Of a stretch of DNA of 34,344 nucleotides, positions 3,660-34,131 are shown piece after piece. Under the pieces are notes generated by a model. The model made no database searches, was not told where the DNA came from, and saw only the letters and a program-made list of their open reading frames with translations. Numbering within the stretch: position 1 is the first letter of the stretch; every line of letters starts with the position of its first letter. The translations under genes were made by a program, and so were the position numbers. This DNA comes from Mesonia hippocampi (GTDB taxonomy: Bacteria > Bacteroidota > Bacteroidia > Flavobacteriales > Flavobacteriaceae), in NCBI RefSeq assembly GCF_014197445.1, contig NZ_JACIFO010000014.1, positions 1 to 34,344 on the forward strand, given 5' to 3'.

Positions 3660-3693
3660 ATATAAAATGGGCTTAGCAATGCCTTAAAATTAG

Positions 3694-12707: not shown

Positions 12708-12722
12708 CAACCATCAGACCCA

Positions 12723-19122: not shown

Positions 19123-19256
19123 TTCCCGTAAGAAAACTAAAAAAATAGACGCTATAAATTATTACAACAAGCCTTTACAATTGCTAAATCAGGGATTCCT
19201 GGTAATAAAAATGTACCAAAATTAGTCTGAAAATATTTGGTTTTTAACTCAGTTCT

Positions 19257-20288
19257 TTGTTGGGCATAGTTATTTTTTTAGAGTCCAATTCATTATTTCG
19301 TTCAAAGCCTCTTTGTCCATTTTATAAAGTGATGTTCCCGCTTTTGCATTTTTTTCAGTCAGCCAATGATTAAGTCCGTCCATTATTTTTATTTGGATTG
19401 TCGAATTATTAAACGATTCAAGCAATTCGATTTCAGATTTTGGGTTTATAAACTTGTCATTTTCTCCAATAATATATAAGACAGGAATATCTATGTTTCT
19501 GTAAGTTTCCTCGTAGTTTTGTTTAACGTGGTCGATATGTGCAGGACTAATAAATTTGTAAAAGTCTTTTTTAAATCCGTTTTCCTTTGCAACTATCTTG
19601 ACTTTTTGTCTTATAATCTTAATATCATCGTTATTAACAATTATCGGATAAATTAAATTTAATAATTCTACAACTTGTTCTTGGGTTTTTCCTTTAATTC
19701 TATAAAATTCACTTATATTATTAATAGTTTGATATTTAAAAAATGTACCATATTTCTCAACTGGTGTTCCCATTTGAATGAGAAAATCAATATTCGGATT
19801 TTTCTTGTATGCTCCAATTGAAGCAATTCCTCCCAAGCTATGACCTAAAACACCAATTTTATGAGATTTAGTGAAATCTAATTTCCTTAATTCCCAGATT
19901 GCAAATGTCAAGTCATCCGTTAATGAAGTAGCGGAAGTATTAAATTTACCTTCGGATTTTCCAATTCCACGTTCGTCAAATCGGTAAACTGCAATTCCAT
20001 TTTTTAAAAATTCTTCGGCTAAAACAAAATGAGCATATCTTGTATCACGTCCACTTCCTGGAACAATTACAACAATTTTATCGAAATCCGATTTGGGTGT
20101 TATTAAAGTTCCAGAGAGTTTGATATTTTCATCTGTATTTTGAAAATCAATTTCTTGAAAGTTATAATTTTCTTTTTTGCTTATTTCTCGTTCGTATTCA
20201 AAAATATTTTGAGAAAATCCATTAAAAGAGATAGTCAAAAAAATCAGAAATATGATGTGAATACAGATTTTTTTCATAATTGTGGGCA
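19257..20288. repeat. Short direct repeats bracketing the alpha/beta hydrolase gene
   Basis: TTGTTGGGCA at 19257-19266 and ATTGTGGGCA at 20279-20288 lie immediately outside the gene on both sides in the same orientation; they align with one gap. Such GGGCA-type edges resemble single-gene cassette borders in Flavobacteriaceae. The GTTGGGC at the left also fits the integron core GTTRRRY. No integrase is present. Confidence 0.4.
19270..20277 (-). CDS. Secreted alpha/beta hydrolase
   Basis: A 335-residue exported hydrolase: the signal peptide is MKKICIHIIFLIFLTI and continues to about residue 22 (FSQ). The fold is the dienelactone-hydrolase/acyl-aminoacyl-peptidase type. Visible parts are the oxyanion strand IVVIVPGSGRDTRY, the nucleophile elbow GHSLGG (near residue 145), the Asp-bearing GENDKFI and the catalytic His in LNHWL near the C-terminus. 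The substrate is unknown (ester or peptide). A longer frame begins with TTG at 20289, but the ATG at 20277 starts a proper signal peptide. It is a lone gene on the minus strand with cassette-like border repeats. Confidence 0.82.
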   Translation of the reverse strand: MKKICIHIIFLIFLTISFNGFSQNIFEYEREISKKENYNFQEIDFQNTDENIKLSGTLITPKSDFDKIVVIVPGSGRDTRYAHFVLAEEFLKNGIAVYRFDERGIGKSEGKFNTSATSLTDDLTFAIWELRKLDFTKSHKIGVLGHSLGGIASIGAYKKNPNIDFLIQMGTPVEKYGTFFKYQTINNISEFYRIKGKTQEQVVELLNLIYPIIVNNDDIKIIRQKVKIVAKENGFKKDFYKFISPAHIDHVKQNYEETYRNIDIPVLYIIGENDKFINPKSEIELLESFNNSTIQIKIMDGLNHWLTEKNAKAGTSLYKMDKEALNEIMNWTLKK

Positions 20289-20499
20289 ACTTCTATATAT
20301 CCTCAAATATATATAACTTTTTATGTTAAAACAAAAGGGGGTATAAAAGCCTAAGAGGGTTTGGTTAAAATGTGTAAGCAAAAAGCATTATTACATTTAC
20401 TTTTTTTAGTTCACGACCTTTTATTTCCTAATAGTGTTCATGAATTATTTTAAACATTCATTTTTTTTATCGATAAAAAAACGAATCAAAAAAATCTAG

Positions 20500-20670
20500 T
20501 GCCTTTAAAGGAAATTTTTACGAATACATTCGTAAAAACCGCTTATTTGCTTATCGCTACATGCCATTTTCGCCTATGGCGAAAGCACTTTCGCTTGCAA
20601 ATAGCTATTTCTAAAGGCCCAGGAAAAATGTATAAATACATTTTTAAAAAGATTTTCCTTTTTTACAGAC
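20500..20670 (+). repeat. Repeat module A, copy 1
   Basis: Contains four hairpins: TTTTTACGAAT/ATTCGTAAAAA, TTTCGCC/GGCGAAA, GCGAAAG/CTTTCGC and AAAAATGTAT/ATACATTTTT. The outer arms are GCCTTTA and TAAAGGC. Copy 2 is nearly identical. Confidence 0.85.
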
Positions 20671-20695
20671 AATTTTCGTGATGCCGAAAAACCCA

Positions 20696-20890
20696 ACAGT
20701 TTTGCAGAAATAGCTGTAAATCCCAGTGGAAGTGCGTCTTTGCATCGCAAAGACAAAGCATGAAACGCCAGATTTAGCAGCGGTTTTAAAACTTGCTTTT
20801 AAAAATTTCCTTAAAACGGTCTTGACTTTTTGGTTCGTTTTGTGTCAAGACAAAATGAACGGATAATTAACTTTAGTACACTTACTTTTT
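20696..20890 (+). repeat. Repeat module B, copy 1
   Basis: Carries hairpin GTCTTTGC/GCAAAGAC (20736-20754) with a variable loop, and two competing hairpins: GTCTTGAC/GTCAAGAC (20819-20851) and GTTCGTTTTGT/ACAAAATGAAC. The other copies are at 32010, 32437 and 32878. Confidence 0.85.
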
Positions 20891-20893
20891 ACC

Positions 20894-21059
20894 ATTGTCG
20901 TAAAAAGTAACAAAAAAGACTAGGCTACCGAATCTTGTCTTAAATTTATTACTCGGAAGCTAAATTTTAGAGAACTCGTATTGGCAAATCAATACTCAAA
21001 CAGCCTAAAATTTTAACGCTTCTTTCGTGGCAAATTTTACAGACAATTTTCGTGATGCC
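20894..21059 (+). repeat. Repeat module C, copy 1
   Basis: A long foldback: AGGCT near the 5' end faces AGCCT near the 3' end, AAATTTTAG faces CTAAAATTT, and GTATTG faces CAATAC at the tip. The tail reads ACAGACAATTTTCGTGATGC. Confidence 0.85.
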
Positions 21060-21160
21060 AGAAAAAAATGTATTAGTTCACGAATCTTTTATTTGCTAGT
21101 GGTGTTCATGAATCAACAAAGTTGATTTCATCGATAAAAAAACGAATCAAAAAAATCTAG

Positions 21161-21330
21161 TGCCTTTAAAGGAAATTTTTACGAATACATTCGTAAAAGC
21201 CGCTTATTTGCTTATCGCTACATGCCATTTTCGCCTATGACGAAAGCACTTTCGCTTGCAAATAGCTATTTCTAAAGGCCCAGGAAAAATGTATAAATAC
21301 ATTTTAAAAAGGTTTTCCTTTTTTACAGAT
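21161..21330 (+). repeat. Repeat module A, copy 2
   Basis: Nearly identical to the copy at 20500. It ends abruptly at TTTTACAGA without the shared tail, so the left array stops here. Confidence 0.85.
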
Positions 21331-21428
21331 GTTTTTTGTAATTCTATAAATACTTACAAATGTATTTTTTAACACTTTTATGAGATTTAGAAAGAAAACA
21401 GGTCTTTTTTGAGTGAAAAAACAAAAAT

Positions 21429-21470
21429 AATCCCTTAAAGATATGTTTTAATCCCTTAAGTATAAGTTTC
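21429..21470. promoter_or_regulatory. Tandem 21-bp direct repeat, candidate AraC-family operator
   Basis: AATCCCTTAAAGATATGTTTT (21429-21449) is followed at once by a second copy (21450-21470) identical at 17 of 21 positions. Two abutting 21-bp half-sites on the same helix face are what AraC-type dimers commonly bind. The array ends 56 bp before the first gene of the operon that encodes an AraC-type regulator. Autoregulation is inferred. Confidence 0.6.
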
Positions 21471-21526
21471 TAGACCTCGAATGTCAATTTTAACTCCGAA
21501 CTTTACTAATTATAAATACAGGTATT

Positions 21527-21904
21527 ATGGTCGTTAAATATTATCCACATTCTCTAGGGAGTTTTTACTTTAAACAAGAAATTTTATTCTTCAAATATAA
21601 ACCCGCTCAGGATGTTAATCTATCACAAGCTAAAAGTGTAACAAAACTCCGTTTAAGATTACAAAACAACAGGGCTTATCCCCTATTTTGTTTTGCTTCT
21701 AATCTGCTTTATATAGAAAGAGATGCACGTGTTTATTTCGCTAATCAAGGTGTTTTATTAACCAAAGCCGTTTGTTTTTTTACAAAGCATGAAGCAACCA
21801 CAGCCATTTTTCACTTCTTTTCGCTTATTCATAAACCTAGTATTCCTGTATTAATAACCCCTAATAAAGAAAATGGAATAAGCTTTTTAAAAGATTTTAC
21901 CTAA
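21527..21904 (+). CDS. DUF7793-like protein (STAS/SpoIIAA-type fold)
   Basis: A 125-residue cytoplasmic protein. Residues from about 45 resemble small Bacteroidota proteins classed as DUF7793 or STAS-like: NRAYPLFCFASN, then DARVYFANQGVLLTKAV, then a strand and HKPSIPVLI, ending with a helix that contains SFLKDF. Function is unknown, but such proteins often sit beside PAS/AraC regulators, as here; the regulator begins 13 bp later, and an operator-like tandem repeat lies upstream. A partner or ligand-sensing role for the regulator is possible. The family assignment is from memory of the pattern and is moderate. Confidence 0.6.
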   Translation: MVVKYYPHSLGSFYFKQEILFFKYKPAQDVNLSQAKSVTKLRLRLQNNRAYPLFCFASNLLYIERDARVYFANQGVLLTKAVCFFTKHEATTAIFHFFSLIHKPSIPVLITPNKENGISFLKDFT

Positions 21905-21917
21905 AACCTTATTTGAT

Positions 21918-22865
21918 ATGACTTGCCAAAAAGATGATAAACGTATAGCTTTTATCTATAAAATGTTGTTAGCTTGGACTAAGGGCAAGTTTTCTTATCG
22001 TATTCCTAAAACAGGTAAAAATGATAAAACCGAAGCCATTATAAATTTATTAAACTTACTTACCGAAGAAATAAAACATTCTTTTTACTACCATATATAC
22101 ACTGCTGGACAAGCTAAATTTAGACCTAGGTTAATGTGGGGCTTCATTCTAAATTTAGATAACCAAATAAAAGCAACCATAGGTAAACCTCCTACTGTAT
22201 TATCTACTAAGCTAAATAACTTAAGGCCTACAGCTTACTTTAACGATTTACTAACAAATAAATCTAAAGTTATCTGGAGGAAAACGCTTTCCCGATTACA
22301 AAAAAATAAAAACGATACTTCCGTACACCAAGAACTATCATTTAAAACAAAAAATAAATTAACATATACGGTTGACTCAACTATTAATCTTATTAAAAAC
22401 ACCCATACTGGTAAACAACAGCTAATTGTTTTTAACATCGATATTTGTGCTATGCCTCTTCATGCCTATTCTGTATCTACAAATAAAAGTAATTTTCTTT
22501 CGCTACCACATACTAGCAAACGTATTATAGATAAGCATACAGATATTAAAGCATTACACCTAATACATCAACATTTAAAAGAGAACCTAAACTCTCCCTT
22601 CCCCTCTTTAAAGAAACTAACAAAAGATTATGGTATTAATGAATTTAAGTTAAAAATAGGTTTTAAGCAGTTCTTCAATACTACAGTTTCTAAATTTCAT
22701 CAAGAGCAACGTTTAAATAAAGCTCATCAGCTTATACGGTTTACCCATTTATCTATACAAGAGATTGCTTTTGATACAGGTTTTAATAGTATTTCTCACT
22801 TCTCTAAAAGCTTTAAAAAACAATTTGGTTATAATCCCAGCCAGCTTAGAAATCGCTTCAAGTAA
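21918..22865 (+). CDS. PAS-domain AraC-family transcriptional regulator
   Basis: A 315-residue regulator. The N-terminal part (about 15-60) resembles a HAMP-like linker (GKFSYRI, then INLLNLLTEEI), followed by a PAS-like domain (about 60-180). The C-terminal AraC DNA-binding domain (about 215-315) holds two helix-turn-helix units: the first around KKLTKDYGINEFKLKIGFK, the second LSIQEIAFDTGFNSISHFSKSF, closed by FGYNPSQLR. There is no transmembrane segment, so it is cytosolic. It follows the DUF7793-like gene, and the MauE/DUF6520 genes come next on the same strand. The tandem 21-bp repeat upstream is its most likely binding site. Confidence 0.85.
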   Translation: MTCQKDDKRIAFIYKMLLAWTKGKFSYRIPKTGKNDKTEAIINLLNLLTEEIKHSFYYHIYTAGQAKFRPRLMWGFILNLDNQIKATIGKPPTVLSTKLNNLRPTAYFNDLLTNKSKVIWRKTLSRLQKNKNDTSVHQELSFKTKNKLTYTVDSTINLIKNTHTGKQQLIVFNIDICAMPLHAYSVSTNKSNFLSLPHTSKRIIDKHTDIKALHLIHQHLKENLNSPFPSLKKLTKDYGINEFKLKIGFKQFFNTTVSKFHQEQRLNKAHQLIRFTHLSIQEIAFDTGFNSISHFSKSFKKQFGYNPSQLRNRFK

Positions 22866-22966
22866 GCTAACTAAAACGTTTTTATACGTTTACATCAAAT
22901 AAAAATACCTAAAAGACAAAACAGCCTCAATGTTATGGAATAATTTTATTGCTATAAGTTTTCAAT

Positions 22967-24460
22967 ATGTTTAATTATCATGTCCATAATCATAGTCGTA
23001 TAGCAGAATATCTTTGTTATGCATTTGTTTTGTTATTTGTTTATGCCGCTGTAAGTAAATTACTCGACTTTAACAGCTTTCAGAATCAACTAGGGCAATC
23101 ACCTCTATTAAGTGCCTATGCTGTTTGGGTAGCTTGGGCAATCCCTTTATCAGAAATTTTAATCGCCGTTGCCTTGGTGGTTCCGCAATGGAGGTGGTTT
23201 GGTTTACATGCATTTTTTACGATGATGTTTATGTTTACCGTCTATATTGTTATCATATTAAACTTTTCTGATTTTATTCCCTGTTCCTGTGGGGGTGTGT
23301 TAGAAAAATTAGGCTGGACAGAACATTTAATTTTCAATATCATCTTTATTTTACTATCAGGTATTGCAATATTTTTAGTTTCTAATCTCGAGCCCACAAA
23401 AAAGATTCTTCTAAAACTCTTCCTGCTCGCTATTATGGCAATAGCTGTAGTAACTACACTCTTTCTAAGTTCAGAAAAACAAATTAAACGCAACAATGCT
23501 TTTATAAGAAAATATATACCTCATCCGATAACGGAAATCGGTCGATATAATTTAAAATACAACTCCTACTATATTGCTGGTATAGACAACAAAACTATCT
23601 ACCTAGGTAATTACACCGCACCATTATCTATGACAACTTTAAACACCTCTTTTAACCAAATAAATGAATTTCAAGTAGCTATAGACAGTATGCATTTACC
23701 TTACAGAAGGGTAACTATAAAAGTAATTCCGCCTTACTTTTACGTAGCAGATGGTACTGTACCTATTATTTTTAAAGGGGAAACACAAAATTGGAAAGGA
23801 AAGGTAAACGCTTATAAAAAAGCCTACTTTAATCAATTTATAGTAGCTGACTCTACAAGAATTGGTATTTCTAGTATAAGTAGTAAAACACAAGCTAATA
23901 TTTTAGGAATTATTGAAAAGAAAAAAGACTTTATCGATTTTAACCTAAATACAGAAATCCTAAATAAACAAACAGACGGCAAGTTTGGTTCCGATGGTTT
24001 ACTTCTTTGGAACAAACATTTACAGCGCTTTATATACACCTATTTCTATAAAAACAGTTATGAAGTAGCTGATAAGAATTTAACACATCAATTTACAGGA
24101 AAAACAATAGATACCATAAGCAAGCCTATTTTAGATATTGCTCACTATACTGCTACTAACCAATATAAACTAGGAGGAAATGCTGTATTTGTAAACAGGC
24201 AAACCGCAACCTATGCCAATTACCTATACATCTACAGTACCCGATTAGGGAAATATGAAAATAGTATAAAAACAGCCTCTATAATTGATGTTTATAACCT
24301 TACCGATAACACCTACGCCTTTAGTTTTTACCTTTTTCATCAAAAAGATAAAAAGCTAAGTGCTTTTACAATTTATAAAGATTTATTGGTGGCCATAGTA
24401 GATGATACATTATGGCTTTACCAATTAAAGCCGAAGTATTTTAACTCCGGCTTTAAGTAA
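22967..24460 (+). CDS. MauE/DoxX-type redox membrane protein with large C-terminal domain
   Basis: A 497-residue membrane protein. The N-terminal four-helix MauE/DoxX domain (about 14-160) has a CSCGG motif with Cys106 and Cys108 at the end of the third helix, as in MauE, which helps form disulfides of methylamine dehydrogenase. After a further helix (about 146-166) come about 320 residues rich in beta strands, probably periplasmic and possibly propeller-like; I know no name for it. The next gene, 79 bp on, encodes a secreted four-Cys protein, a plausible disulfide substrate. No methylamine dehydrogenase genes are present. The ATG at 22967 follows a 101-bp gap after the regulator. Confidence 0.75.
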   Translation: MFNYHVHNHSRIAEYLCYAFVLLFVYAAVSKLLDFNSFQNQLGQSPLLSAYAVWVAWAIPLSEILIAVALVVPQWRWFGLHAFFTMMFMFTVYIVIILNFSDFIPCSCGGVLEKLGWTEHLIFNIIFILLSGIAIFLVSNLEPTKKILLKLFLLAIMAIAVVTTLFLSSEKQIKRNNAFIRKYIPHPITEIGRYNLKYNSYYIAGIDNKTIYLGNYTAPLSMTTLNTSFNQINEFQVAIDSMHLPYRRVTIKVIPPYFYVADGTVPIIFKGETQNWKGKVNAYKKAYFNQFIVADSTRIGISSISSKTQANILGIIEKKKDFIDFNLNTEILNKQTDGKFGSDGLLLWNKHLQRFIYTYFYKNSYEVADKNLTHQFTGKTIDTISKPILDIAHYTATNQYKLGGNAVFVNRQTATYANYLYIYSTRLGKYENSIKTASIIDVYNLTDNTYAFSFYLFHQKDKKLSAFTIYKDLLVAIVDDTLWLYQLKPKYFNSGFK

Positions 24461-24513
24461 ACATATACTGCGCAGTATCAGGCAGAAGACCGAACGCCTG
24501 TTGAAAGATTCGG
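24426..24513 (+). promoter_or_regulatory. Hairpins and palindrome in front of the DUF6520-type gene
   Basis: In order: hairpin AAAGCCG/CGGCTTT overlapping the end of the redox gene (24426-24455), a perfect 14-bp palindrome ATACTGCGCAGTAT (24465-24478), hairpin CAGGC/GCCTG (24479-24500), and the competing CCGAA (24490-24494) with TTCGG (24509-24513). This could be an RNA processing or stabilising site, or an operator, letting the small gene be expressed more than the redox gene. Confidence 0.5.
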
Positions 24514-24539
24514 TTATCAATTCAATAAAATTTAAAATT

Positions 24540-24809
24540 ATGAAAACTAAATTTTTAAAATTAGGGCTGCCCTTGGCAGTATTTATGTTGGCAATTGTAT
24601 TTGCTTTTGCCTCTAACTCGACCTCCAAGGCTCAAGATACTTCTTTAGCTTTGGTACCTGGTTATATTTTCCAAGATGGAAAATGTCAGCAAGTAGCTAC
24701 TTGTAGTACTGTACCAGGACCTCTTTGTATGGTAGGTACAAAAATTGCTCGCAATAAAATCAATGAGACCCAATGTGGGTTAGAGCAGTTATACCATTGG
24801 AGCAATTAA
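24540..24809 (+). CDS. Small secreted four-cysteine protein, DUF6520-type
   Basis: An 89-residue exported protein that fits the DUF6520 family of Bacteroidota. The signal peptide covers about 1-25 (KTKFLKLGLPLAVFMLAIVF) and probably ends near SKAQ. The mature part is 58 residues with Cys49, Cys55, Cys63 and Cys79, which could make two disulfides. It lies 79 bp after the redox protein gene. The ATG at 24540 is preferred over the longer frame at 24501, because only this start begins with a signal peptide. A strong hairpin terminator follows at 24816. Function is unknown; a peptide substrate, signal or structural secreted factor is possible. Confidence 0.75.
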   Translation: MKTKFLKLGLPLAVFMLAIVFAFASNSTSKAQDTSLALVPGYIFQDGKCQQVATCSTVPGPLCMVGTKIARNKINETQCGLEQLYHWSN

Positions 24810-24815
24810 CAGGGA

Positions 24816-24858
24816 TTACCTCCCCAATAAGTTTTAAAAGATTTATTAGGGAGGTATA
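24816..24858. terminator. Bidirectional terminator between convergent operons
   Basis: TTACCTCCCCAATAA (24816-24830) faces TTATTAGGGAGGTA (24843-24856), a near-perfect stem of about 14 pairs. An AT-rich tract follows on the plus strand. It separates the DUF6520-type gene from the convergent S9 peptidase gene. Confidence 0.7.
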
Positions 24859-27417
24859 TTATTTTAAATAAGTATCAAACCAATTTTTTATACGTTTAGA
24901 TAAATCCTTTTTATTTTTATTTATGCTAAGTGTATGACTTTCACCTGTATAATAAATTAGCTTTGCAGGCTTTCTTAATCTTCTAAGTGCGAGATACCCC
25001 TGAAGGCTTTGGTTAGGGTTCACATTAGTGTCTTCTTTTCCTGCCCAAATCAGGAGCGGAGTATTTACCCCTGCCATATTATGAAGCGGTGAATTTTCCA
25101 TAAATGTCTCCGAATCTTCAAAATATGATTTCTGCATCCTAAACAAGCCATTATTTTCTACCCTTATAATCTCTGAATGTCCTGTCATCTTATAAATATC
25201 AAAATAAAAACTTAAAAGGTTAAAGATTCCGGCACCTGAAACGGCTGCGGCAAATAAATCCGTTTGGGTGACAATGAAAGCTGTTTCGTAACCGCCAAAG
25301 GAATGACCTATCAACCCTATTCTTTTTTTGTCAACAGGGACTGTTTCAAGAACCTTTTTAACTGCTTTTTCAACACATTTTAAAGCAGATATTCCCGGCT
25401 TCCCTTTTTCGTAGTAGATATCAGGGAGCAAAACAAAATAATCATCAAGGGCATAATTCATTGAATTAAAACCATTTTCATTGAACAATGACGGAGGTGT
25501 AAATTTATGTAAGTAGGACGATTGCTCTTCATAAATAGAAACAATCATAGGGTATTTTTTTTCAGGGTTATAATTAACCGGATAGATCAATACCCCTTTT
25601 AAGGAATCGGCTATTTCGGTATCATAATAGATAAGCTCTTTTTTAGGCCAATTGTACTGATTCCATTGGGTATTGCTCAAAAAAACCGTTTTGGAACTCT
25701 TCTTTTTTAGGTTTTTATATACTACAGAAGATGGAATAGTTAAGCTTTGTTCCTTAAAAATAAAACTATCAGTTCCTAGCTGAAAAAGATTAGTCAATCG
25801 CCTGTCTTTAAAAACAATTTCACGGATATTATCAGTATCTTTCCATTGGTAGAACCCTGACCTTAAATTTTTAGTATTTGTAGCACTTAATAAAAGACCA
25901 TCCTTGGAGTCAATCGTGAACGTATCAAATCCGATATAATCATATCGAATTTTTTTATCATTATTACCAGTTACGATTCTAAAAACAGTATTTGACTCCC
26001 TACCTTTTGTTAGTTTTTCCTTTCTAGTGCCATTAACACTAATTTTCCATACATCATATCTATCATATACAAAAACTTCACTATCGTTTTCAGACCACCC
26101 TGCAAGCCCGTATGGTTGTGGATTATTATAATCATACTGCCCCTCTTTATAAAACCCCGCATCTAAATCTTGTGTTAAGTTAATGTGTTTTTTCTCTTTA
26201 AGGTTGTATAGCCACCAATTTTTTTCCTTGAAGTAAACAAAATAATTTCCCGTAGGAGAAAAATGCACATAACCGATTCCGGGATATTGTTTTTTAACAA
26301 TCAGTTCTTTTTCGGCTGTCTCAGTATCCAAAGCATATATATCGATAAACGGATAGTAATGAAATTTCGGTTCGTTGGAAATCACATTAAAATTCAAGGC
26401 ATACTGATAATTTGGATTAAAAACTACTTTTGGAAACTCCTCTGTTCCTAGGGGAATAACTTTATTGCTTTTAGGGCACCAAACATATAACCATGGCCCA
26501 AATTCACCTGTGTTTTCATATTTTTTTCTGGAATGAATCAATGGGTCAGAGGTGTCCCAAACTTCAACACCAGGTGTTGTATTTTTTTTACCTCTTTTAG
26601 GTACTGCATAAAAAAACACTTTATCTCCTAAATCTGATATTGATAATTTACCGTTTGTTATCTCTATTTCATCATTAATCTTTGAAAAAGCATCTGATGT
26701 TAAATGTTCAATAGTTCCTTCTTTCAAATTATAGTATGCCAAATGATGCGCTTTCTTATCCTTTGAATTATACAGTACACCCAATTTTTCTCCTGTAGCG
26801 TTCCATGTTAATCTTTGAAAACTACTATTTTTTCCACTCATTATTTTGTGACCTTTCAATGTATTCAAATCATAAATAAAAAGAGACTCCCTGCCATTCT
26901 TATGCAACACGACCGCCAAAACTTCATTGGTAGGATTTAACGAGTACGTTAGGCTTTTATCGAGTTTGTACGACTGCTTGGTAACAAGGTTTCTCAATTC
27001 CAATGTATCAGATAGGGTTTGTACCAATAAATGATTTGAAGAAGTAGAAAGGTGATAGGATTTAACTCGATTGATCGTATCAACAGATTTCTTAAGTAAA
27101 TCCACCATTAGTAAGGAGTCTGAACCAGAACGGATACAAAACCACTTATCGTTAAAACTTCCCCAATACCCTCCAGAGAAATCTAGGGTTTTCCCCGTTT
27201 CTATATGTTTAATAGAAGTAACTTCATTATCCCCAATAAAATGATGTGTACTATAGTGAATCCATTTATTGTCTTTTGATACACCAAGCAAATATAGATT
27301 TTCCCATAAACTATCCTTTTCTACAGAATATTTTTGCACCTGACCATACAAGGAAATATTACCAAAATATAAAAATAAGCTAAATGTAATTAGTAAGATT
27401 TTGATTTTACATTTCAT
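24859..27417 (-). CDS. Secreted S9 family serine peptidase (prolyl oligopeptidase type)
   Basis: An 852-residue exported peptidase. The signal peptide (about 5-24) is followed by a long beta-propeller-like region (about 30-600) and a C-terminal alpha/beta hydrolase domain. The triad is Ser706 in GHSFGGYE, Asp796 in GKEDTN and His828 in ESHTLS. The family includes dipeptidyl and acylaminoacyl peptidases that act on peptides of limited length. It is the third gene of a minus-strand operon after susC and susD, 18 bp from susD, so it probably processes peptides taken up or captured by the outer-membrane pair. Substrate specificity cannot be read. Confidence 0.88.
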   Translation of the reverse strand: MKCKIKILLITFSLFLYFGNISLYGQVQKYSVEKDSLWENLYLLGVSKDNKWIHYSTHHFIGDNEVTSIKHIETGKTLDFSGGYWGSFNDKWFCIRSGSDSLLMVDLLKKSVDTINRVKSYHLSTSSNHLLVQTLSDTLELRNLVTKQSYKLDKSLTYSLNPTNEVLAVVLHKNGRESLFIYDLNTLKGHKIMSGKNSSFQRLTWNATGEKLGVLYNSKDKKAHHLAYYNLKEGTIEHLTSDAFSKINDEIEITNGKLSISDLGDKVFFYAVPKRGKKNTTPGVEVWDTSDPLIHSRKKYENTGEFGPWLYVWCPKSNKVIPLGTEEFPKVVFNPNYQYALNFNVISNEPKFHYYPFIDIYALDTETAEKELIVKKQYPGIGYVHFSPTGNYFVYFKEKNWWLYNLKEKKHINLTQDLDAGFYKEGQYDYNNPQPYGLAGWSENDSEVFVYDRYDVWKISVNGTRKEKLTKGRESNTVFRIVTGNNDKKIRYDYIGFDTFTIDSKDGLLLSATNTKNLRSGFYQWKDTDNIREIVFKDRRLTNLFQLGTDSFIFKEQSLTIPSSVVYKNLKKKSSKTVFLSNTQWNQYNWPKKELIYYDTEIADSLKGVLIYPVNYNPEKKYPMIVSIYEEQSSYLHKFTPPSLFNENGFNSMNYALDDYFVLLPDIYYEKGKPGISALKCVEKAVKKVLETVPVDKKRIGLIGHSFGGYETAFIVTQTDLFAAAVSGAGIFNLLSFYFDIYKMTGHSEIIRVENNGLFRMQKSYFEDSETFMENSPLHNMAGVNTPLLIWAGKEDTNVNPNQSLQGYLALRRLRKPAKLIYYTGESHTLSINKNKKDLSKRIKNWFDTYLK

Positions 27418-27435
27418 AACTATTCGTTGTTTAAA

Positions 27436-28842
27436 TTAATACCCAGAATTTTGTGGGGCTAAATTGGGGTTAGTCAATAAATCTGCTTCAGGAATGGGCA
27501 ATAAAACATTCGTGGGGCTCCATCCGGGTTTAATCGGCGTTAATACTTCATCTGCAACACCAAACCTACGTATATCAAACCACCTATGCCCGTGCTCTGT
27601 AAATAACTCAAAACGCCTTTCGTTTAAAATGGCTTCCAATAAACTTTCAGTATCAGTAGCAGTGGTGTTTGCCAATCCTGCACGTTGGCGAATACGATTA
27701 AGGTCATCTTGCGCTCCACTAATATTATGCTGTCTAGCACGAGCTTCTGCACGAATTAAGTATTGTTCTGCCAAACGAAACACAATAGAATACTCCATGC
27801 TATTGCCTGTATTGGAGTATTGTTTATACTTATACGGAAAATACCAGGTGCCATTACCATCGGTAACTTCGCCTATCCAATGTGTTTTTCTTAAATCATT
27901 ACCTTCCATCGCTGCAACAAGAGTATTAGTCAATGCTACAAAAGGCGGCGGGGCCGTTACAAAAATAAAAGTGGTTCCTTCTTGACTATTTGCTCCTGTA
28001 TTTTTAGATTTTAGCTGTAAAATAGCAGAAGTACTTTCTTTTAAAAACTCATTATTTATATCGGTTTCCAAATTAAATAATAAGGTATTATCCATAAGTA
28101 AGCTGCTCTCCATTTCTGCCTCTTCCCATCGTTCCATATATAAATAAACCCTTGCTAACAGTGCAGATACCGCCCACTTATTGGCACGAATACGTTCTTC
28201 TGAAATATAGGTATCTCCTAAAAGTGTTTTAGCTTCGGTTAAATCGAGAAGAATATTTTCATAGATTGTCTCCTTTGGCATTCTTAGTACCTCCTTATTC
28301 ATTTCAAAATCTGTGGTTGTGATATAAGGTATTTCACCAAAAAGATTTATAAGGTAAAAATGCGCCAACGACCTAATGAACAAAGATTCGCCTCTCAGTT
28401 GGTTTTTAACTGACACGGATAGGTTTGGTGAAGATTCCAAACCTTCAAGTACGGCATTGCTCATATAGACCAGATTATAGGATTTGCCCCAAATAGATTC
28501 CACCCCTACATCTGATGCTACTATCTGATGATAATAGAAAGTTAGGGAAGGATCCCAGGGATTTCCATAAAATTCTAACTCATCGGTATAAAGCCCCATT
28601 AAAGCCCCCATACCAAAAGATGTCCCTGTTACCAGCACTTCATCCCTTAGTTTTGCATACATTGTAGTAACTGCTGCAGTAGCTGTTGCTTCATCTTCAT
28701 AAACTTCTTGGTGTGGTACTTGGCCAAACGGTTCATCTATTTCCAAAAAGTCTTCACAACCTGATATTAGTAATAAACAAATTAGCAAATAAATGGTTTG
28801 CTTTATTTTTTGAAGTCGGTAATATATTTTTAGTGTTTTCAT
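27436..28842 (-). CDS. SusD/RagB-like nutrient-uptake lipoprotein
   Basis: A 468-residue surface lipoprotein that forms the lid of the SusC transporter. The lipobox is LLISGC with lipidated Cys29, after a hydrophobic helix (18-27). The SusD-type TPR helices follow; FLIRAEARARQHNISGA-like and NLIRQRAGL-like segments in the C-terminal third, with a late WFDIRRFG, are typical. The downstream peptidase suggests peptide rather than glycan binding, although this is inference. Spacing to susC is 18 bp and to the peptidase 18 bp. The gene is complete. Confidence 0.94.
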   Translation of the reverse strand: MKTLKIYYRLQKIKQTIYLLICLLLISGCEDFLEIDEPFGQVPHQEVYEDEATATAAVTTMYAKLRDEVLVTGTSFGMGALMGLYTDELEFYGNPWDPSLTFYYHQIVASDVGVESIWGKSYNLVYMSNAVLEGLESSPNLSVSVKNQLRGESLFIRSLAHFYLINLFGEIPYITTTDFEMNKEVLRMPKETIYENILLDLTEAKTLLGDTYISEERIRANKWAVSALLARVYLYMERWEEAEMESSLLMDNTLLFNLETDINNEFLKESTSAILQLKSKNTGANSQEGTTFIFVTAPPPFVALTNTLVAAMEGNDLRKTHWIGEVTDGNGTWYFPYKYKQYSNTGNSMEYSIVFRLAEQYLIRAEARARQHNISGAQDDLNRIRQRAGLANTTATDTESLLEAILNERRFELFTEHGHRWFDIRRFGVADEVLTPIKPGWSPTNVLLPIPEADLLTNPNLAPQNSGY

Positions 28843-28860
28843 AATCTATATTGTATTGGT

Positions 28861-31836
28861 TTATAAATGTAGCTGCACCCCAAAGGTAATTCTCCTTAAA
28901 GGAGGCAAGAACCCGTTCATTTGTTCAGGATCTCCACCTTTAAATCGTGTAAAAGTCAATAGGTTTTGGCCTTGTACAGAAATTCGGCAAGAAGTATTGT
29001 TAGATTTGTTAAGTGGAAGTGTATAAGATAATGCCAAAGACTTTAATCTAATAAAAGAAGCGTCTGATATAGCAGCGTTACTTTGACTAAATTGTGAGTG
29101 TGCTAAAAAAGCTTCAGAATTTGCTCCCGTTGTAAACCTTTGCATCTCTGCCTGGTCTCCAGGTTTTTGCCAACGACCCAATACCGATACGGGCTGATTG
29201 GTCATAGTTCCAGGAGGTTCACTGGTGCGGTACTGGTTATATCCATCTTTCTTGACAAACTGGAAAAAAACATCCATTGCCCAATTTTTATAGCTCAGGC
29301 TATTTGAGAACCCACCGAAAAATTTTGGGGTTAGGTCGGCAATATATTGCCTATCTTCGGCAGCGGTAATCGTTCCGTCATTGTTGTAGTCTTCAAACTC
29401 AAAAAGACCAGTTTCAGGATTTACCCCTTTCAAATTATATAACTTAGCTATAGATAAAGGTTCCCCGATAACAAAGCGATTGGTATATGTAGAATTCTCA
29501 AGTCCGGGAAATCTCAATAATTCATTCTTAGGCAACGATAGGTTGAAAGAAGCTTTCCAGTCAAAGCTTTCATTTTGAATAATAGCTCCGTTTAATTCAA
29601 TTTCCCATCCTGAATTTTCCACTAAAGCGTCCAAATTAGCTTGGATTGATGTAAACCCTGTAGTACCCGGAAGGGCATAATTGATAAGCTGGTTGGAAGA
29701 ACGGTTCTTATAATAAGCGGTAGAGAATGCCATACGTTGATTAAGAAACCTAAGCTCCAGTGCAATCTCCATTTTTTTATTTTTTTCCCATTTGAAATTA
29801 GGATTATTCAATCGGGCAGGATTCAACCCAATGTTTCCATCGTAGAAATTATCATTAATGGTATAGGTCTGTAAGTATTGATAATCCCCAATTTGGTCGT
29901 TCCCTGTTACCCCATAACTCCCTCTAAGCTTCCCAAAGCTTAACCACGATAAATTAATATCTTCCGAAAAGAGCCAAGCTGCACCTACCGCCCCAAAGTT
30001 CCCATATTTATTCCCTGAACTAAAACGGCTAGAGCCATCACGCCTTCCGGTTAGGTTTACAAAGAGTTTATTTTTGTAGGCATAGTTTAACCGTGTGAAA
30101 AATGATTGAGAATTATACTGTATAATATCTTCGTTTAATACCAAAAGTGTAGTGGCTGCACTTAGGTTATATATAAGCCTGTCTGATGGAAAACCAAGCC
30201 CTGCCAATGTCTGTTTTTCTTGATTTTGTTTTTGAAAGGTACTACCTACCAATATGTTAAACACCCCATTACTTAATGTTCTATTCCAATGTAACTGAGG
30301 CTCAACTATCCAGTAATCCTTATCAGCTCCATTCAGTATAACCGTAGAATTTTCACTATCCAATCCAAAAGCTGGATCATAAACCGTATGTGGTGAAGTA
30401 ATATTATCCTGTAGGTTTGTATAACCATACCCAGAATTTACTTTTAACTCTAAGTTGTCCATCAATTTATAAGAAATCACAGCACTCGAAAACAGGCTTT
30501 TGGTTTTATTTCTATACTTTCCTTCCAATTGTGCCAAAGGGTTTGTCCACGTACTATTTTCCCAGTTTAACGCCCCTTCATCATCGTATAATTCTGGAGC
30601 ATTGGGAGCTAATCTAATAGCACTAAAAGACAAATCTGTTCCGGGTAAAAAATTGTCTTCAAGAGTATAGCCTGTATTTAGTGTTACCTGAAATCGGTCA
30701 CTGGAACTGGTATGCCGGATGTTGGAATTTATAGTAATACGATCATAATTAAAGTCTTCAGGATATACTGTAGTCTCATTTTGGTACATCCCGCTTATCA
30801 AGAACTGCGTACTTTTACTACCTCCCGACACTGAGGCTTGTAACTTACTTGTGTTGGCAGTTTCACCTACAAGTGCTTCTTGCCAATCTGTATACCTATC
30901 TTCATCCCAAGTACCGTTCACATCATAAGCATTGGCAGGATACTCCGTAATCCCATCATTAGCAAAAGCTTCCCTACGCATTTCAAGGTATTGTTCTGTG
31001 TTCATCAAATCCATTTTTCGAGTGATGGAAGCAATACCCGTACTGCTATTTATCGTAAATTTTGTTTTACCTTCTTTACCTTTTCTTGTAGTAATCAAAA
31101 CAACCCCATTTGCCCCACGAGAGCCATAAATTGCCGTAGCATCGGCATCTTTTAGTACTTCAATAGATTCTATAATGCCTGGGTTAATGGCATTTAAGGG
31201 ACTAATGTTTCCTCCTGGGATAATTGCTCCTGAAGAATTACCTGAACCTAATGTACGTGAATCATAAGGTACACCATCTATAATATACAGCGGCTCATTA
31301 CCTGCCATAATACTGTTTTGCCCTCTTATTTTCACTTCAAAACCACCACCGGGAACTCCAGAGTTTTGTACAACCTCTACCCCTGCCATACGCCCTTGCA
31401 TTGCTTCTAAAGGATTGTTTACGGGTTGGTTTTCTATCTCTTTTGCGGTAATCCTACTAATGCTCCCCGTGCGCTCTTTGTCTTTAACGGTATAATAGCC
31501 TGCATTAATAAGTACCGCAGCTAGGGTGTTGGCTTCGGGTGTTAGGTTTATTGTAAAAAATACCTGCTCTCTTACTGCTAGCTCTTGGGTTTTAAACCCT
31601 ATATAGCTAACCACCAAGGTATCGCTAGGCGATGCTTCTAGTTTAAACCTGCCTTCAAAATTGGTGGTTGTTCCTGTTGTTGTGTTTTTAAGCAGTATGT
31701 TTACCCCTGGGATGGGCATATTGCTGCTATCGGTAATTAGCCCAGATACACTTACTTGTGCGTGTATGGGCAGTGCAAAGCTGCTTAGGAGTAAGTATAT
31801 ACTACCCCTAAGGCATTGCCTAAATAAAATTTTCAT
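28861..31836 (-). CDS. SusC/RagA-type TonB-linked outer-membrane transporter
   Basis: A 991-residue outer-membrane receptor driven by TonB. In order: signal peptide (about 8-27), a CarboxypepD-reg-like domain with VSGLITDSSNMPIPGVNILL (about 29-48), the plug (about 120-250) with RGQNSIMAGNEPLYIIDGVP, and a 22-strand barrel to the C-terminus. The last residue is Leu rather than the usual Phe/aromatic. It heads a susC-susD-S9 peptidase operon. Just upstream lies a 15-bp perfect palindrome (31858-31872). No anti-sigma/ECF pair or SusE homologue is present. Confidence 0.94.
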   Translation of the reverse strand: MKILFRQCLRGSIYLLLSSFALPIHAQVSVSGLITDSSNMPIPGVNILLKNTTTGTTTNFEGRFKLEASPSDTLVVSYIGFKTQELAVREQVFFTINLTPEANTLAAVLINAGYYTVKDKERTGSISRITAKEIENQPVNNPLEAMQGRMAGVEVVQNSGVPGGGFEVKIRGQNSIMAGNEPLYIIDGVPYDSRTLGSGNSSGAIIPGGNISPLNAINPGIIESIEVLKDADATAIYGSRGANGVVLITTRKGKEGKTKFTINSSTGIASITRKMDLMNTEQYLEMRREAFANDGITEYPANAYDVNGTWDEDRYTDWQEALVGETANTSKLQASVSGGSKSTQFLISGMYQNETTVYPEDFNYDRITINSNIRHTSSSDRFQVTLNTGYTLEDNFLPGTDLSFSAIRLAPNAPELYDDEGALNWENSTWTNPLAQLEGKYRNKTKSLFSSAVISYKLMDNLELKVNSGYGYTNLQDNITSPHTVYDPAFGLDSENSTVILNGADKDYWIVEPQLHWNRTLSNGVFNILVGSTFQKQNQEKQTLAGLGFPSDRLIYNLSAATTLLVLNEDIIQYNSQSFFTRLNYAYKNKLFVNLTGRRDGSSRFSSGNKYGNFGAVGAAWLFSEDINLSWLSFGKLRGSYGVTGNDQIGDYQYLQTYTINDNFYDGNIGLNPARLNNPNFKWEKNKKMEIALELRFLNQRMAFSTAYYKNRSSNQLINYALPGTTGFTSIQANLDALVENSGWEIELNGAIIQNESFDWKASFNLSLPKNELLRFPGLENSTYTNRFVIGEPLSIAKLYNLKGVNPETGLFEFEDYNNDGTITAAEDRQYIADLTPKFFGGFSNSLSYKNWAMDVFFQFVKKDGYNQYRTSEPPGTMTNQPVSVLGRWQKPGDQAEMQRFTTGANSEAFLAHSQFSQSNAAISDASFIRLKSLALSYTLPLNKSNNTSCRISVQGQNLLTFTRFKGGDPEQMNGFLPPLRRITFGVQLHL

Positions 31837-31857
31837 AGTTTTGTGGTATTAAGTGGT

Positions 31858-31872
31858 GTACCCTATGGGTAC
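31858..31872. promoter_or_regulatory. Perfect palindrome GTACCC TAT GGGTAC upstream of susC
   Basis: A 6-bp perfect inverted repeat with a 3-bp spacer, located 22 bp upstream of the susC ATG. It could be an operator or a short 5' UTR hairpin. It does not resemble the 21-bp repeat near the AraC regulator. Confidence 0.4.
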
Positions 31873-32009
31873 GTTATTGCTTAGTTGCCTTCCTGCGGTT
31901 CGCCAAAACTTTGTGGGAAGGTTTTTTGTTTGTTTTTTACTTAACTTGTGTTTTTCTGTTTATTCGTTTTAGTGTTCATGAATCAAAAAAATTGATTTCA
32001 ACCCAACCG

Positions 32010-32205
32010 ACAGTTTTGCAGAAATAGCTGTAAATCCAGTGGAAGTGCGTCTTTGCTCTACAAAGACAAAGCATGAAACGCCAGATTTAGCAGCGGTTTT
32101 AAAACTTGTTTTTTAAAATTTCCTTAAAACGGTCTTGACTTTTTGGTTCGTTTTGTGTCAAGACAAAATGAACGGATAATTAACTTTAGTATACTTACTT
32201 TTTTT
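32010..32205 (+). repeat. Repeat module B, copy 2
   Basis: Same as copy 1; the hairpin is GTCTTTG/CAAAGAC with loop CTCTA, showing a changed loop with kept stem. Confidence 0.85.
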
Positions 32206-32260
32206 AGTTCACAAACCTTTTATTTGCTAATGGTGTTCATGAATCAACATAGTTGATTTC

Positions 32261-32426
32261 ATTGTCGTAAAAAGTAACAAAAAAGACTAGGCTGCCGAAT
32301 CTTGTCTTAAATTTATTACTCGGAAGCTAAATTTTAGAGAACTCGTATTGGCAAGCCAATACTCAAACAGCCTAAAATTTTAACGCTTCTTTCGTGTCAA
32401 ATTTTACAGACAATTTTCGTGATGCC
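32261..32426 (+). repeat. Repeat module C, copy 2
   Basis: Full-length C with tip hairpin GTATTGGC AA GCCAATAC. It has a longer stem than copy 1. Confidence 0.85.
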
Positions 32427-32436
32427 GAAAAAACCG

Positions 32437-32630
32437 ACAGTTTTGCAGAAATAGCTGTAAATCCAGTGGAAGTGCGTCTTTGCACCGCAAAGACATAGCA
32501 TGAAACGCCAGATTTAGCAGCGGTTTTAAAACTTGCTTTTAAAAATTTCCTTAAAACGGTCTTGACTTTTTGGTTCGTTTTGTGTCAAGACAAAATGAAC
32601 GAATAATAAACTTTAGTATACTTACTTTTT
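32437..32630 (+). repeat. Repeat module B, copy 3
   Basis: Hairpin GTCTTTGC ACC GCAAAGAC. It directly follows the C tail GATGCCGAAAAA. Confidence 0.85.
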
Positions 32631-32713
32631 TAGTTCATAAACCTTTTATCTGCTAATAGTGTTCATGAATCAACATAGTTGATTTCATCGATAAAAAAAC
32701 GAATCAAAAAAAT

Positions 32714-32853
32714 CTAGGCTGCCGAATCTTGTCTTAAATTTATTACTCTAAAGCTAAATTTTAGAGAACTCGTATTGGCGAACCAATACTCAAACAGCCT
32801 AAAATTTTAACGCTTCTTTCGTGGCAAATTTTACAGACAATTTTCGTGATGCC
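32714..32853 (+). repeat. Repeat module C, copy 3 (5'-shortened)
   Basis: Joined to D at CTAG, so the first ~24 bases of C (ATTGTCGTAAAAAGTAAC and a few more) are missing. The tip hairpin is GTATTGG CGAA CCAATAC. Confidence 0.8.
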
Positions 32854-32877
32854 GAAAAAATTGTTTCAACCCAACCG

Positions 32878-33072
32878 ACAGTTTTGCAGAAATAGCTGTA
32901 AATCCAGTGGAAGTGCGTCTTTGCTCAGCAAAGACAAAGCATGAAACGCCAGATTTAGCAGCGGTTTTAAAACTTGTTTTAAAAATTTCCTTAAAACGGT
33001 CTTGACTTTTTGGTTCGTTTTGTGTCAAGACAAAATGAACGGATAATTAACTTTAGTATACTTACTTTTTTT
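32878..33072 (+). repeat. Repeat module B, copy 4
   Basis: Hairpin GTCTTTGC TCA GCAAAGAC, followed by D. Confidence 0.85.
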
Positions 33073-33158
33073 AGTTCACAAACCTTTTATCTGCTAATAG
33101 TGTTCATTAATCAACATAGTTGATTTCATCGATAAAAAAACGAATCAAAAAAATCTAG

Positions 33159-33240
33159 TGCCTTTAAAGGCCCAGGAAAAATGTATAAATACATTTTTAA
33201 AAAGGTCTTCCTTTTTTACAGACAATTTTCGTGATGCCGA
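33159..33240 (+). repeat. Repeat module A, copy 3 with internal deletion
   Basis: Begins TGCCTTTAAAGG and jumps straight to CCCAGGAAAAATG. About 105 bases found in copies 1 and 2 are gone, precisely between two TAAAGG words. Confidence 0.8.
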
Positions 33241-33383
33241 AAAACCAACAGTTTTAGTTTGTTTGGTATTAAAACAAAATGAACAAAAAATAAACAGCGT
33301 ACACTTGTATTAAGTATTAAAAGTTAGGTGTTGTTGCATAGGCGTTTGTGGTATTGTTGGTTAATAATTTAATTAAACGCCAT

Positions 33384-33490
33384 AAAAAAGGCGTGGAACT
33401 CAACTTATCGGACAGAGGTACTGGTATACCGCGCAACAATAAGAGAGCCCACGCCTAGGTCGTGAGCATCTTGCTTATCTTCTCGTTGCT
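33384..33490 (-). ncRNA. Candidate structured RNA with pseudoknot and terminator-like end
   Basis: On the minus strand GCAAC (33489-33485) and ATAAG (33478-33474) pair with CTTAT (33443-33439) and GTTGC (33437-33433). GGCGTGG (33455-33449) in that loop pairs with CCACGCC (33396-33390) downstream, forming a pseudoknot topology, followed by six T residues (33389-33384). This looks like a small RNA ending in a T-run. No exact -7 box lies upstream. I cannot name the family. Confidence 0.4.
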
Positions 33491-33654: not shown

Positions 33655-34131
33655 ATGGAAAACGTCAAACTAAAAAAGCTTTTAGCTACCATAGGAAAAA
33701 CTATAAAACAGCATCGTTTACAACAAGAACTACAACCTGAAGACATTGCTGAAATGACTAATTTAACAGCTGTTACTATTAGAAACATTGAAGCTGGTGA
33801 AGAAACTTACCTCTCCAACTTTTTGGCTGTATGTTTAGCATTAAAAATGGCACCTAAAGATATATTAGATATAGAAATAAAACTAGAACCACTCTATAAA
33901 CTCTCACAACCACGAAAAGAAAAAAGCAGACTTACCCCTAGGATTAATAAAATTTTAGGTTCAGATTTTTTCACTCAAGAGCGTACCGCTAAAGATGTTG
34001 TTAGGGAATTAGGAGCTATTTATAAAATTTCACCTTCTACTGCGGAAGTTTCTGTAATACTTAAACGGAAAGTAAAAGAAGGAAAGCTAAACATAGAAAA
34101 ACAAGGTAGATTAAATATTTATAAAAAATAA
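33655..34131 (+). CDS. XRE-family transcriptional regulator with C-terminal winged-helix-like part
   Basis: A 158-residue DNA-binding protein. Residues about 10-70 form an XRE/Cro-type helix-turn-helix (IGKTIKQHRLQQELQPEDIA, then TNLTAVTIRNIEAG). The second half (about 95-158) is basic with a helix-turn-strand pattern (SPSTAEVSVILKRKVKEG, then RLNIYKK) that looks winged-helix-like. It is a lone gene; AT-rich inverted repeats upstream suggest self-regulation. It could be the antitoxin-like half of a pair, but no toxin gene follows within the 213 bp left in the window. Confidence 0.75.
   Translation: MENVKLKKLLATIGKTIKQHRLQQELQPEDIAEMTNLTAVTIRNIEAGEETYLSNFLAVCLALKMAPKDILDIEIKLEPLYKLSQPRKEKSRLTPRINKILGSDFFTQERTAKDVVRELGAIYKISPSTAEVSVILKRKVKEGKLNIEKQGRLNIYKK

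Follow-up and report, generated by a model that had tools for sequence, protein, structure and literature searches.

Palindromic repeat arrays of Mesonia hippocampi belong to a superfamily of Bacteroidota repeats with a common, possibly pseudoknotted head

Background

A 34,344-nucleotide stretch of the Mesonia hippocampi genome (contig NZ_JACIFO010000014.1, positions 1 to 34,344; hereafter, the window) contains two arrays of palindrome-rich modules that an initial annotation, made from the letters of the sequence alone, designated A, B, C and D. The question raised by this locus is what kind of element these arrays represent: a non-autonomous mobile element, a structured RNA or an array of binding sites, the three options proposed at that stage. 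A module BLAST search of the window finds both arrays as described, with the modules in the order given originally. Module D consists of two parts, D1 (58 bp) and X (29 bp), and X belongs to the head of modules A and C. As detailed below, the arrays are members of a chromosomal repeat superfamily of the phylum Bacteroidota that is multi-copy and non-coding and has a new common head; the superfamily is one of interspersed palindromic repeats, a known kind of element.

One head on different bodies

Modules A, B and C share one head of about 44 bp, which in A and C is inverted relative to B: both X and the 5' flank of C are part of the motif that occupies the 3' part of B, but run in the opposite orientation. 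The head comprises two overlapping inverted repeats, namely an 11-bp stem and a flank of 6 nt whose complement is the loop of that stem. Its parts follow in the order S1 (CTTGAN, or CTAGAN in A and C), L1 (a T-run plus G), S2 (GTTCNTTTTN), S1' and S2' (NAAAANGAAC), where S1' (NTCAAG) is the loop of S2. A covariance model of the head (hereafter R1), built from 21 instances, matches 28 of 40 relatives at E ≤ 0.1 and, with stricter filters and E ≤ 0.001, 78 of 296 Bacteroidota genomes that represent 41 of the 140 genera sampled; the other 218 genomes yield no match under the strict settings. SusC/SusD genes and named relatives likewise point to Bacteroidota as the phylum. A head pattern with fixed spacing found none of the 296 genomes and missed even the host, and is therefore a poor pattern that provides no evidence of absence. 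Named records with the head include Faecalibacter rhinopitheci WQ 117 (loci L059 and L066) and Flavobacterium sp. xlx-214 (L064). Two genomes (G005 and G010) contain a further family with the same head architecture spelled in different letters (loop GGACGAG, flank GCGTC, stem tract AAAGAAAA with L1 TTTTCTTTT). One and the same head sits on different bodies.

Module order and junctions in the host genome

Copies and junctions were tallied by module BLAST over the window and 20 stretches of the host genome (2.59 Mb in 26 contigs). The modules are interspersed beyond the window, as their designation as interspersed repeats had implied, with a B-D-C probe finding 80 BLAST places in the host genome. 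At 90% or more of module length, the tally includes 24 copies of D1, 20 of X, 14 of B, 13 of C and 8 of A. These counts are probably lower bounds because five contigs (C2, C13, C17, C19 and C23) begin or terminate in, or a few bases from, modules; the same coincidence suggests that the modules break short-read assemblies.

The junction points, when tabulated, are mostly fixed to the base. The gap is 1 in 9 of 10 X to A junctions, 0 in 8 of 10 X to C junctions, 0 in 15 of 20 B to D1 junctions and 6 in 8 of 10 D1 to B junctions. The varying orders reported for the modules hold only in part: A and C are interchangeable and D1 is optional, but the order itself is a fixed cycle in which B is followed by A or C and then again by B, with an optional D1 at either boundary. 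Within the arrays, the units alternate in orientation, so that heads adjoin heads and tails adjoin tails. D1 is found between two heads as well as between tails; in two copies (window positions 32204-32261 and one in locus L040), it lies within the loop of the C head hairpin and, judging by eye, in heads of the X type it takes the place of the 5' arm of the hairpin.

The fold of the head

In the fold proposed here, the loop of S2 would pair with the 5' flank, S1, and the T-run of L1 would lie in the major groove of S2 as T•A-T triplets, giving an H-type pseudoknot with a triple helix. Covariation was assessed in an alignment of 59 distinct rows from 66 matches in 48 chosen loci. Within it, 98.0% of the head cells are paired compared with 84.8% in shuffled alignments, and the covariation score is 0.318 compared with 0.078 (0 of 500 shuffles in both cases); 9 pairs are altered on both sides, against 5.8 in shuffles (1 of 500). 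The flank-loop column pair 8/35 varies between UA (45 rows), CG (6), AU (4) and another combination (1). The outer S1 columns are nearly invariant and hence carry little information. In the nine heads of the CTAGA (A/C) type, positions 8, 6 and 4 pair in all nine and position 7 in five, and positions 5 and 3 in none. The inner S1 pairs accordingly appear to be the better supported ones, matching what sterics would allow with S2 formed.

The tracts that would form the triplets hardly vary: T10-13 of L1, T20-23 of S2 and A34-37 of S2' are invariant or changed or missing in 1 of the 59 rows, and the adjacent stem positions covary. A run-length grammar that fixes no run lengths identifies 92 distinct instances in the fetched loci compared with 1 in a one-strand-resampled control. 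The lengths of the pyrimidine runs of L1 and S2 are correlated (rho 0.45 over the 92 instances and 0.55 over 48 distinct combinations), and those of the T-runs more strongly (rho 0.68 over the 70 instances with L1 of at least 4; rho 0.79 with one instance per distinct arm, n=43, 0 of 5000 permutations). A looser parser, which mixed in unrelated hairpins, gave rho 0.31 (n=163). In 66 of the 69 heads tabulated, of the 70, the L1 run equals or exceeds the S2 run in length. In asymmetric tracts with an internal C, L1 follows the mirror order in 5 of 5 cases (two fit the direct order as well, and no case fits the direct order alone), which is the order required of a parallel Hoogsteen strand.

PMC4666352 defines a class IV of intrastrand triplexes, with a search rule that allows stems of 6-15 nt and loops of 1-6 nt. 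The order of the tracts in the head is that of class IV, with the L1 T-run, the S2 T-run and the S2' A-run consecutive on one strand and covarying in length. With respect to size, a T8/T8/A8 instance from F. rhinopitheci (L066) falls within the rule, but the common T4 head falls short of it: of the 69 tabulated heads, 44 have an S2 T-run of 4, under the stem minimum of 6. The tracking of the L1 run with the stem T-run is what a T•A-T triplex pseudoknot would predict; triplex formation itself is inferred.

The bodies and the folding strand

The modules were originally said to fold into hairpins, and one copy of each does so with z-scores of -3.6 (A), -3.1 (B) and -3.1 (C); the native energy is reached by 0, 1 and 0 of 200 shuffles, respectively. 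For the body of C, 111 distinct elements were gathered from congeners by BLAST and reduced to 32 representatives at 93%, of which 20, picked by eye, were aligned. Left out were elements with a D1-type head, an insertion or odd ends, along with some extra copies from species already represented; 3 of the 20 still carry head insertions. RNAalifold folds the C body into one long imperfect stem of 37 pairs, 17 of which show compensatory changes, and by a separate count on the same structure 18 of the 37 are changed on both sides. In this stem, 95.8% of cells are paired compared with 82.9% in shuffles and the covariation score is 0.345 compared with 0.112 (0 of 500 for each); changes on both sides affect 97 cells, against 29.1 in shuffles, and changes on one side are rare. 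When the partner is shifted by 1-3 columns, pairing falls to 27-55%.

Outside the genus, the bodies differ in sequence, and the body side of the head still folds better than the other side. In 40 loci, which represent 40 of the 66 head matches at one per locus, the mean fold z-score is -1.96 on the body side and -0.76 on the other side (Wilcoxon p 0.0008), and values below -2.5 occur in 14 and 3 loci, respectively.

The head shows a single-strand signal: read on the head strand, S2 contains 35 G•T cells and 1 A•C cell, or 9 and 0 without column 19, the commonest G•T column. The head strand is also lower in energy in 19 of 20 C elements, although base composition confounds this comparison. The data favour single-strand folding, especially in the head, are compatible with both RNA and single-stranded DNA, and leave all three of the initial options standing.

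Dispersal, turnover and genomic context

The copies occupy sites with largely unrelated flanks, their junctions being mostly fixed. For example, the variant-head family of G005 and G010 was aligned at six places, the flanks of which are largely unrelated. Copy number differs at one orthologous locus: three congeners (G001, G006 and G012) have different numbers of units beside an orthologous sugar transferase gene, in G012 as a tandem of about 365 bp. On the far side of this locus, G001 and G006 are 94.6% identical over 1634 bp; the far neighbour in G012 was not reached, and the eight other fetched congeners have a different neighbouring gene. In some copies, small palindromes are seen by eye at the loop or the A-run of heads. 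Inverted heads close the composite C-B or A-B pairs and also four pairs in G039, but single units have a head at one end only.

Several candidate vehicles and contexts were considered and rejected. Carriage by plasmids or phages is disfavoured by the lack of any match of array 2 in 72,556 plasmid and 50,697 phage records; a strict exact pattern likewise has no match in viral contigs. The units do not resemble integron-like gene cassettes as they sit between ordinary genes, although no integrase search was made. The RNA repeats of type III toxin-antitoxin systems were a further candidate considered and set aside, with no search for a toxin made. An association with polysaccharide loci is only modest and unevenly spread over genomes. 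In nine of the sixteen genomes of the genus, the host included, at least 15 of 86 element clusters lie within 20 kb of a PF02397 match compared with at most 4.1 expected, and at least 24 compared with 10.2 within 50 kb, the clusters being those among the matches listed; 5 of the 15 are in G012 and, among the matches listed, none in G007, G008 or G010. Absence of SbcD (TIGR00619) as a permissive factor was also discarded: among the genomes chosen, this family scores above the cut-off in 8 of the 20 rich in heads and in 4 of the 20 free of them.

Some neighbours of C elements deserve mention in their own right. In locus L263 (positions 12240-13500, from contig C7 of G012), a gene for an IS110-like transposase, so assigned by eye from its N-terminal sequence, lies beside a C element and appears to be inserted within another palindromic repeat, module E. 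The same toxin-antitoxin-like pair (RelE/ParE-like, by eye) is adjacent to C elements in the host, G001 and G012 (L038, positions 3664-4183; L273, about 1800-2326; L282 in G012). Another long palindromic repeat (AACGCCCTGACGGATATGG...CTGTCAGGGCGTTG) is located upstream of three isolated C copies in L038 and L039.

Comparison with known systems

The initial conclusion that the sequence is unrelated to any nameable family agrees with the Rfam search, which has 0 matches in the window; relaxed scans of the two arrays give 3 and 4 matches, all far under the gathering scores (best E 0.06). No description of the repeat family appears among the openly accessible papers listed, subscription papers and preprints being outside this scope.

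The topology proposed for the head is that of the triple-helix pseudoknot of telomerase RNA, in which a U-rich loop 1 lies beside the U-A tract of stem 2. No homology is claimed, and the head differs from telomerase RNA in having no third loop of the usual length. Among intergenic repeats, the enterobacterial RU-1 is also known as ERIC and, to our knowledge, no head/body modularity has been recognised in RU-1 or RU-2. The RU-1 and RU-2 repeats, compared here by description and not by sequence, are likewise intergenic, 127-168 bp in length and called MITE-like (resembling miniature inverted-repeat transposable elements) in PMC2759123.

The arrays had been likened to pneumococcal BOX elements. 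According to PMC3049150, BOX (boxA-boxB-boxC) is composite, interspersed and non-coding, with a predicted fold and a variable number of modules, and the arrays share all these features. The likeness nevertheless turns out to be an analogy only: no host module is tandemly amplified between two others, and instead two body types alternate in inverted pairs with one common head. A common head on different bodies is absent from the descriptions of BOX consulted in that source; the comparison is by description, not by sequence.

Repetitive extragenic palindromes (REPs), with the bacterial interspersed mosaic elements and REP doublets (BIMEs and REPINs) that they form, are multi-copy and often arranged in inverted pairs and clusters (PMC3733652 and PMC6006769), and in this respect resemble the units described here. 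In contrast, REPs are 20-40 bp long and many carry a GTAG or CGTC tag, whereas the present units measure about 175-200 bp, lack such a tag at the stem foot, have a head consensus with an 11-bp stem and a GTTC/GAAC foot, and have no partner REP-associated tyrosine transposase (RAYT) in the host. RepRanger, a survey tool of 2025, has been applied to Flavobacterium genomes in a scan for REP-like palindromes, and its output may include pieces of these repeats (PMC12306157). Finally, the Escherichia coli BoxC or intrastrand triplex motif, which PMC4666352 presents as widespread, conserved, intergenic and able to fold back twice on one strand, is a G/C-rich purine motif of class II, whereas the head would be an A/T-rich pyrimidine motif of class IV that lies within a pseudoknot and is joined to a body.

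Possible origins and functions

The observations are best compatible with a unit made of a constant head of about 44 nt and an interchangeable body, which in the C family is one long imperfect hairpin. Such a unit would act as a single strand in its folded form, with the body read before the head, and the units would spread as non-autonomous elements by means of a trans-acting enzyme that recognises the fold, possibly on single-stranded DNA at replication forks. Recombination among repeated tails and D1 copies, together with nested insertion at hairpin loops and A-runs, would produce the arrays and the module swaps. To this explanation as a whole, from the shared-head superfamily through the single-strand fold to non-autonomous spread by an enzyme acting in trans, we assign a probability of about 0.45. 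A bolder version, namely, a phylum-wide repeat in which a triplex-pseudoknot head is swapped between unrelated hairpin bodies, serves as a strand-specific RNA or single-stranded DNA substrate of an enzyme and constitutes a class of mobile elements independent of RAYT, is conceivable but doubtful. What gives the head its interest is that it is recognisable in more than a quarter of the sampled genera of one phylum and comes with a specific prediction of tertiary structure; if true, the proposal would add a Bacteroidota counterpart of the REP/RAYT system with a different chemistry.

A number of points weigh against the explanation preferred here. With regard to the head, an S1 of six pairs without a linker before S2' looks sterically impossible, and no more than about three S1 pairs seem able to coexist with S2. 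Because the G•T pair and both the T and the A tracts were built into the search patterns and the model from the start, the conservation and the G•T count are partly due to ascertainment; the T-run length test is less exposed to this effect and yet was made on the same loci as the head search, with the restriction to L1 of at least 4 leaving out 22 of the 92 instances. The alignment rows are related, and neither shuffles nor permutations take account of kinship. The five mirror-order cases amount to about one or two independent families, and one of them, TCTTTT, may be a coincidence given that L1 often begins with C anyway. With regard to the body, the measure of further pair types in C is not above shuffles (285 of 500), and the body side does not fall below a z-score of -2.5 in 26 of the 40 loci. 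G•U makes up only 11 of the 709 standard pairs (1.6%) of the C body, against 18 of 119 (15%) in five distinct tRNAs, a scarcity more in keeping with a double-stranded palindrome than with a functional RNA. On the head strand, the C body has 15 G•T and 11 A•C cells, or 15 and 2 without one boundary column, so that its strand bias depends on omitting that column; and shuffle-corrected folding of one element favours the opposite strand (z-score -6.2 compared with -3.2). With regard to movement, no orthologous empty site was found, no match in the congeners searched reaches over the abhydrolase gene beside array 1, and no target duplication was seen by eye in the inspected alignments, a systematic test not having been made; with neither of these nor a mover found, mobility is unproven.

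The same evidence can be read in other ways. The strong covariation of the head and the C body, the excess of G•T over A•C on one head strand and the covariation of T-run lengths would all be expected of a transcribed structured RNA, in which the body hairpin and the triple-helix pseudoknot serve as a stabiliser or regulator of the 3' end and the multi-copy spread is secondary. We consider this unlikely, given the lack of an Rfam family, the very small share of G•U among the C-body pairs and the position of both window arrays between divergently oriented open reading frames (ORFs), and because an element that leaves 218 of 296 genomes unmatched at E ≤ 0.001 is not a universally conserved RNA. 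The scarcity of G•U, together with the 97 cells of the C body changed on both sides and the rarity of one-sided changes, also agrees with neutral palindromic repeats in which template switching and gene conversion, rather than selection for a fold, maintain the complementarity of the arms. That account predicts neither the covariation of T-run lengths outside the stem nor the fixed T and A tracts and the pairing of loop with flank, and appears distinctly less probable than a structured RNA.

Invariant blocks within covarying stems might instead mark the arrays as sets of sites recognised by a DNA-binding protein, for example a nucleoid factor or a regulator. As a duplex site needs no Watson-Crick covariation at the variable stem positions, this is very improbable. 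Slightly lower still is our estimate for repeats of the REP/BIME type mobilised by a RAYT (TnpA-REP) transposase, even though RAYT subclass 2.6 is reported (PMC6006769) mostly from Bacteroidetes and with atypical flanking structures that have genomic copies elsewhere. Searches of the host gave no PF01797 match at E ≤ 0.001; nor, at E ≤ 0.01, did they yield a match to a protein taken as 2.6-type by its YIHxNP-like motif. A match to the latter is present in 17 and absent from 18 of 35 head-bearing genomes, and six genomes (G000, which is the host, G003, G006, G012, G039, 76% complete, and G046) carry the repeat with neither match. None of the 30 Y1 loci examined, of 67 matches listed, is flanked by a head within 1.5 kb (best E 0.22), and inspection by eye of six 2.6-like genes shows other hairpins at their flanks or none that is obvious. 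RAYT as the mover is thus disfavoured by the lack of a match in the host and by the unflanked Y1 loci, the search for movers having covered the Y1 type only. The RAYT-like genes of relatives (L147, L148, L150 and L151) have simple hairpin flanks, e.g., ACCTACAAGGTC...GACCTTGTAGG or ACCTCACAGGT...ACCTGTGAGGT.

Layout of the arrays in the window

All features below are on the plus strand and were located by module BLAST unless stated otherwise. Array 1 (20406-21342) has the layout D1(partial)-X-A-B-C-D1-X-A. It starts with a partial D1 linker (20406-20445), followed by the head of the first A copy on the minus strand (20454-20501), which is a weak R1 match (27.8 bits, E 3.7e-4), and by the A body with the tail shared by A and C (20500-20691; BLAST and folding). 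Module B (20693-20890) terminates in the shared head on the plus strand (20819-20862; R1, 67.6 bits). Next comes the C head on the minus strand (20880-20920) in its hairpin form, TTACTTTTTAC...GTAAAAAGTAA, for which R1 gives only 19.8 bits (E 0.04), so that its assignment relies on homology to C elements of other species. The C body, a long imperfect hairpin with the A/C tail (20923-21065; folding, alignment and BLAST), is followed by a D1 linker (21073-21130), by X, which provides the 3' arm and A-rich linker of the A head (21131-21159), and by the second A copy (21161-21342).

Array 2 (31970-33295) reads d-B-D1-C-B-D1-X-C-B-D1-X-A(truncated)-b. A D1 fragment (31970-32000) precedes the first B (32007-32203), and the D1 that follows (32204-32261) is the copy inside the loop of a C head hairpin, as judged by comparison with 20883-20911. 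After module C (32290-32431) there are a second B (32434-32630), a D1 linker (32630-32687), X (32688-32716) and another C (32717-32858), and then a third B (32875-33070), D1 (33071-33128), X (33129-33157) and a copy of A without its first 112 bp or so (33165-33244). The heads of the three B copies, located by R1, are at 32132-32175, 32559-32602 and 32999-33042. The array ends in a B remnant (33252-33295; BLAST and R1), in which the start of B is fused to a decayed head (23.1 bits).

The tail common to A and C, noted from the outset, measures 30-31 nt and is 97-100% identical among the window copies. Neither array contains an ORF of 80 amino acids or more, in line with the early impression that the modules have no convincing coding capacity, and in copies outside the window the same-strand ORFs listed (60 amino acids or more) span 60-70 amino acids. 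Several A copies, e.g., L031 1950-2132, retain a GTG-started frame of 60 amino acids (MPLKEIFTN...), which is probably a by-product of sequence conservation.

Two other features of the window lie outside the arrays. A different interspersed repeat, fragments of which recur in the host and several congeners, is located at 19157-19280 between the deoxyhypusine synthase and abhydrolase genes. At 33374-33455, upstream of the ORF at 33655-34131, there is a G/C-rich stretch with paired ends and no Rfam match that looks like a small structured RNA or a leader.

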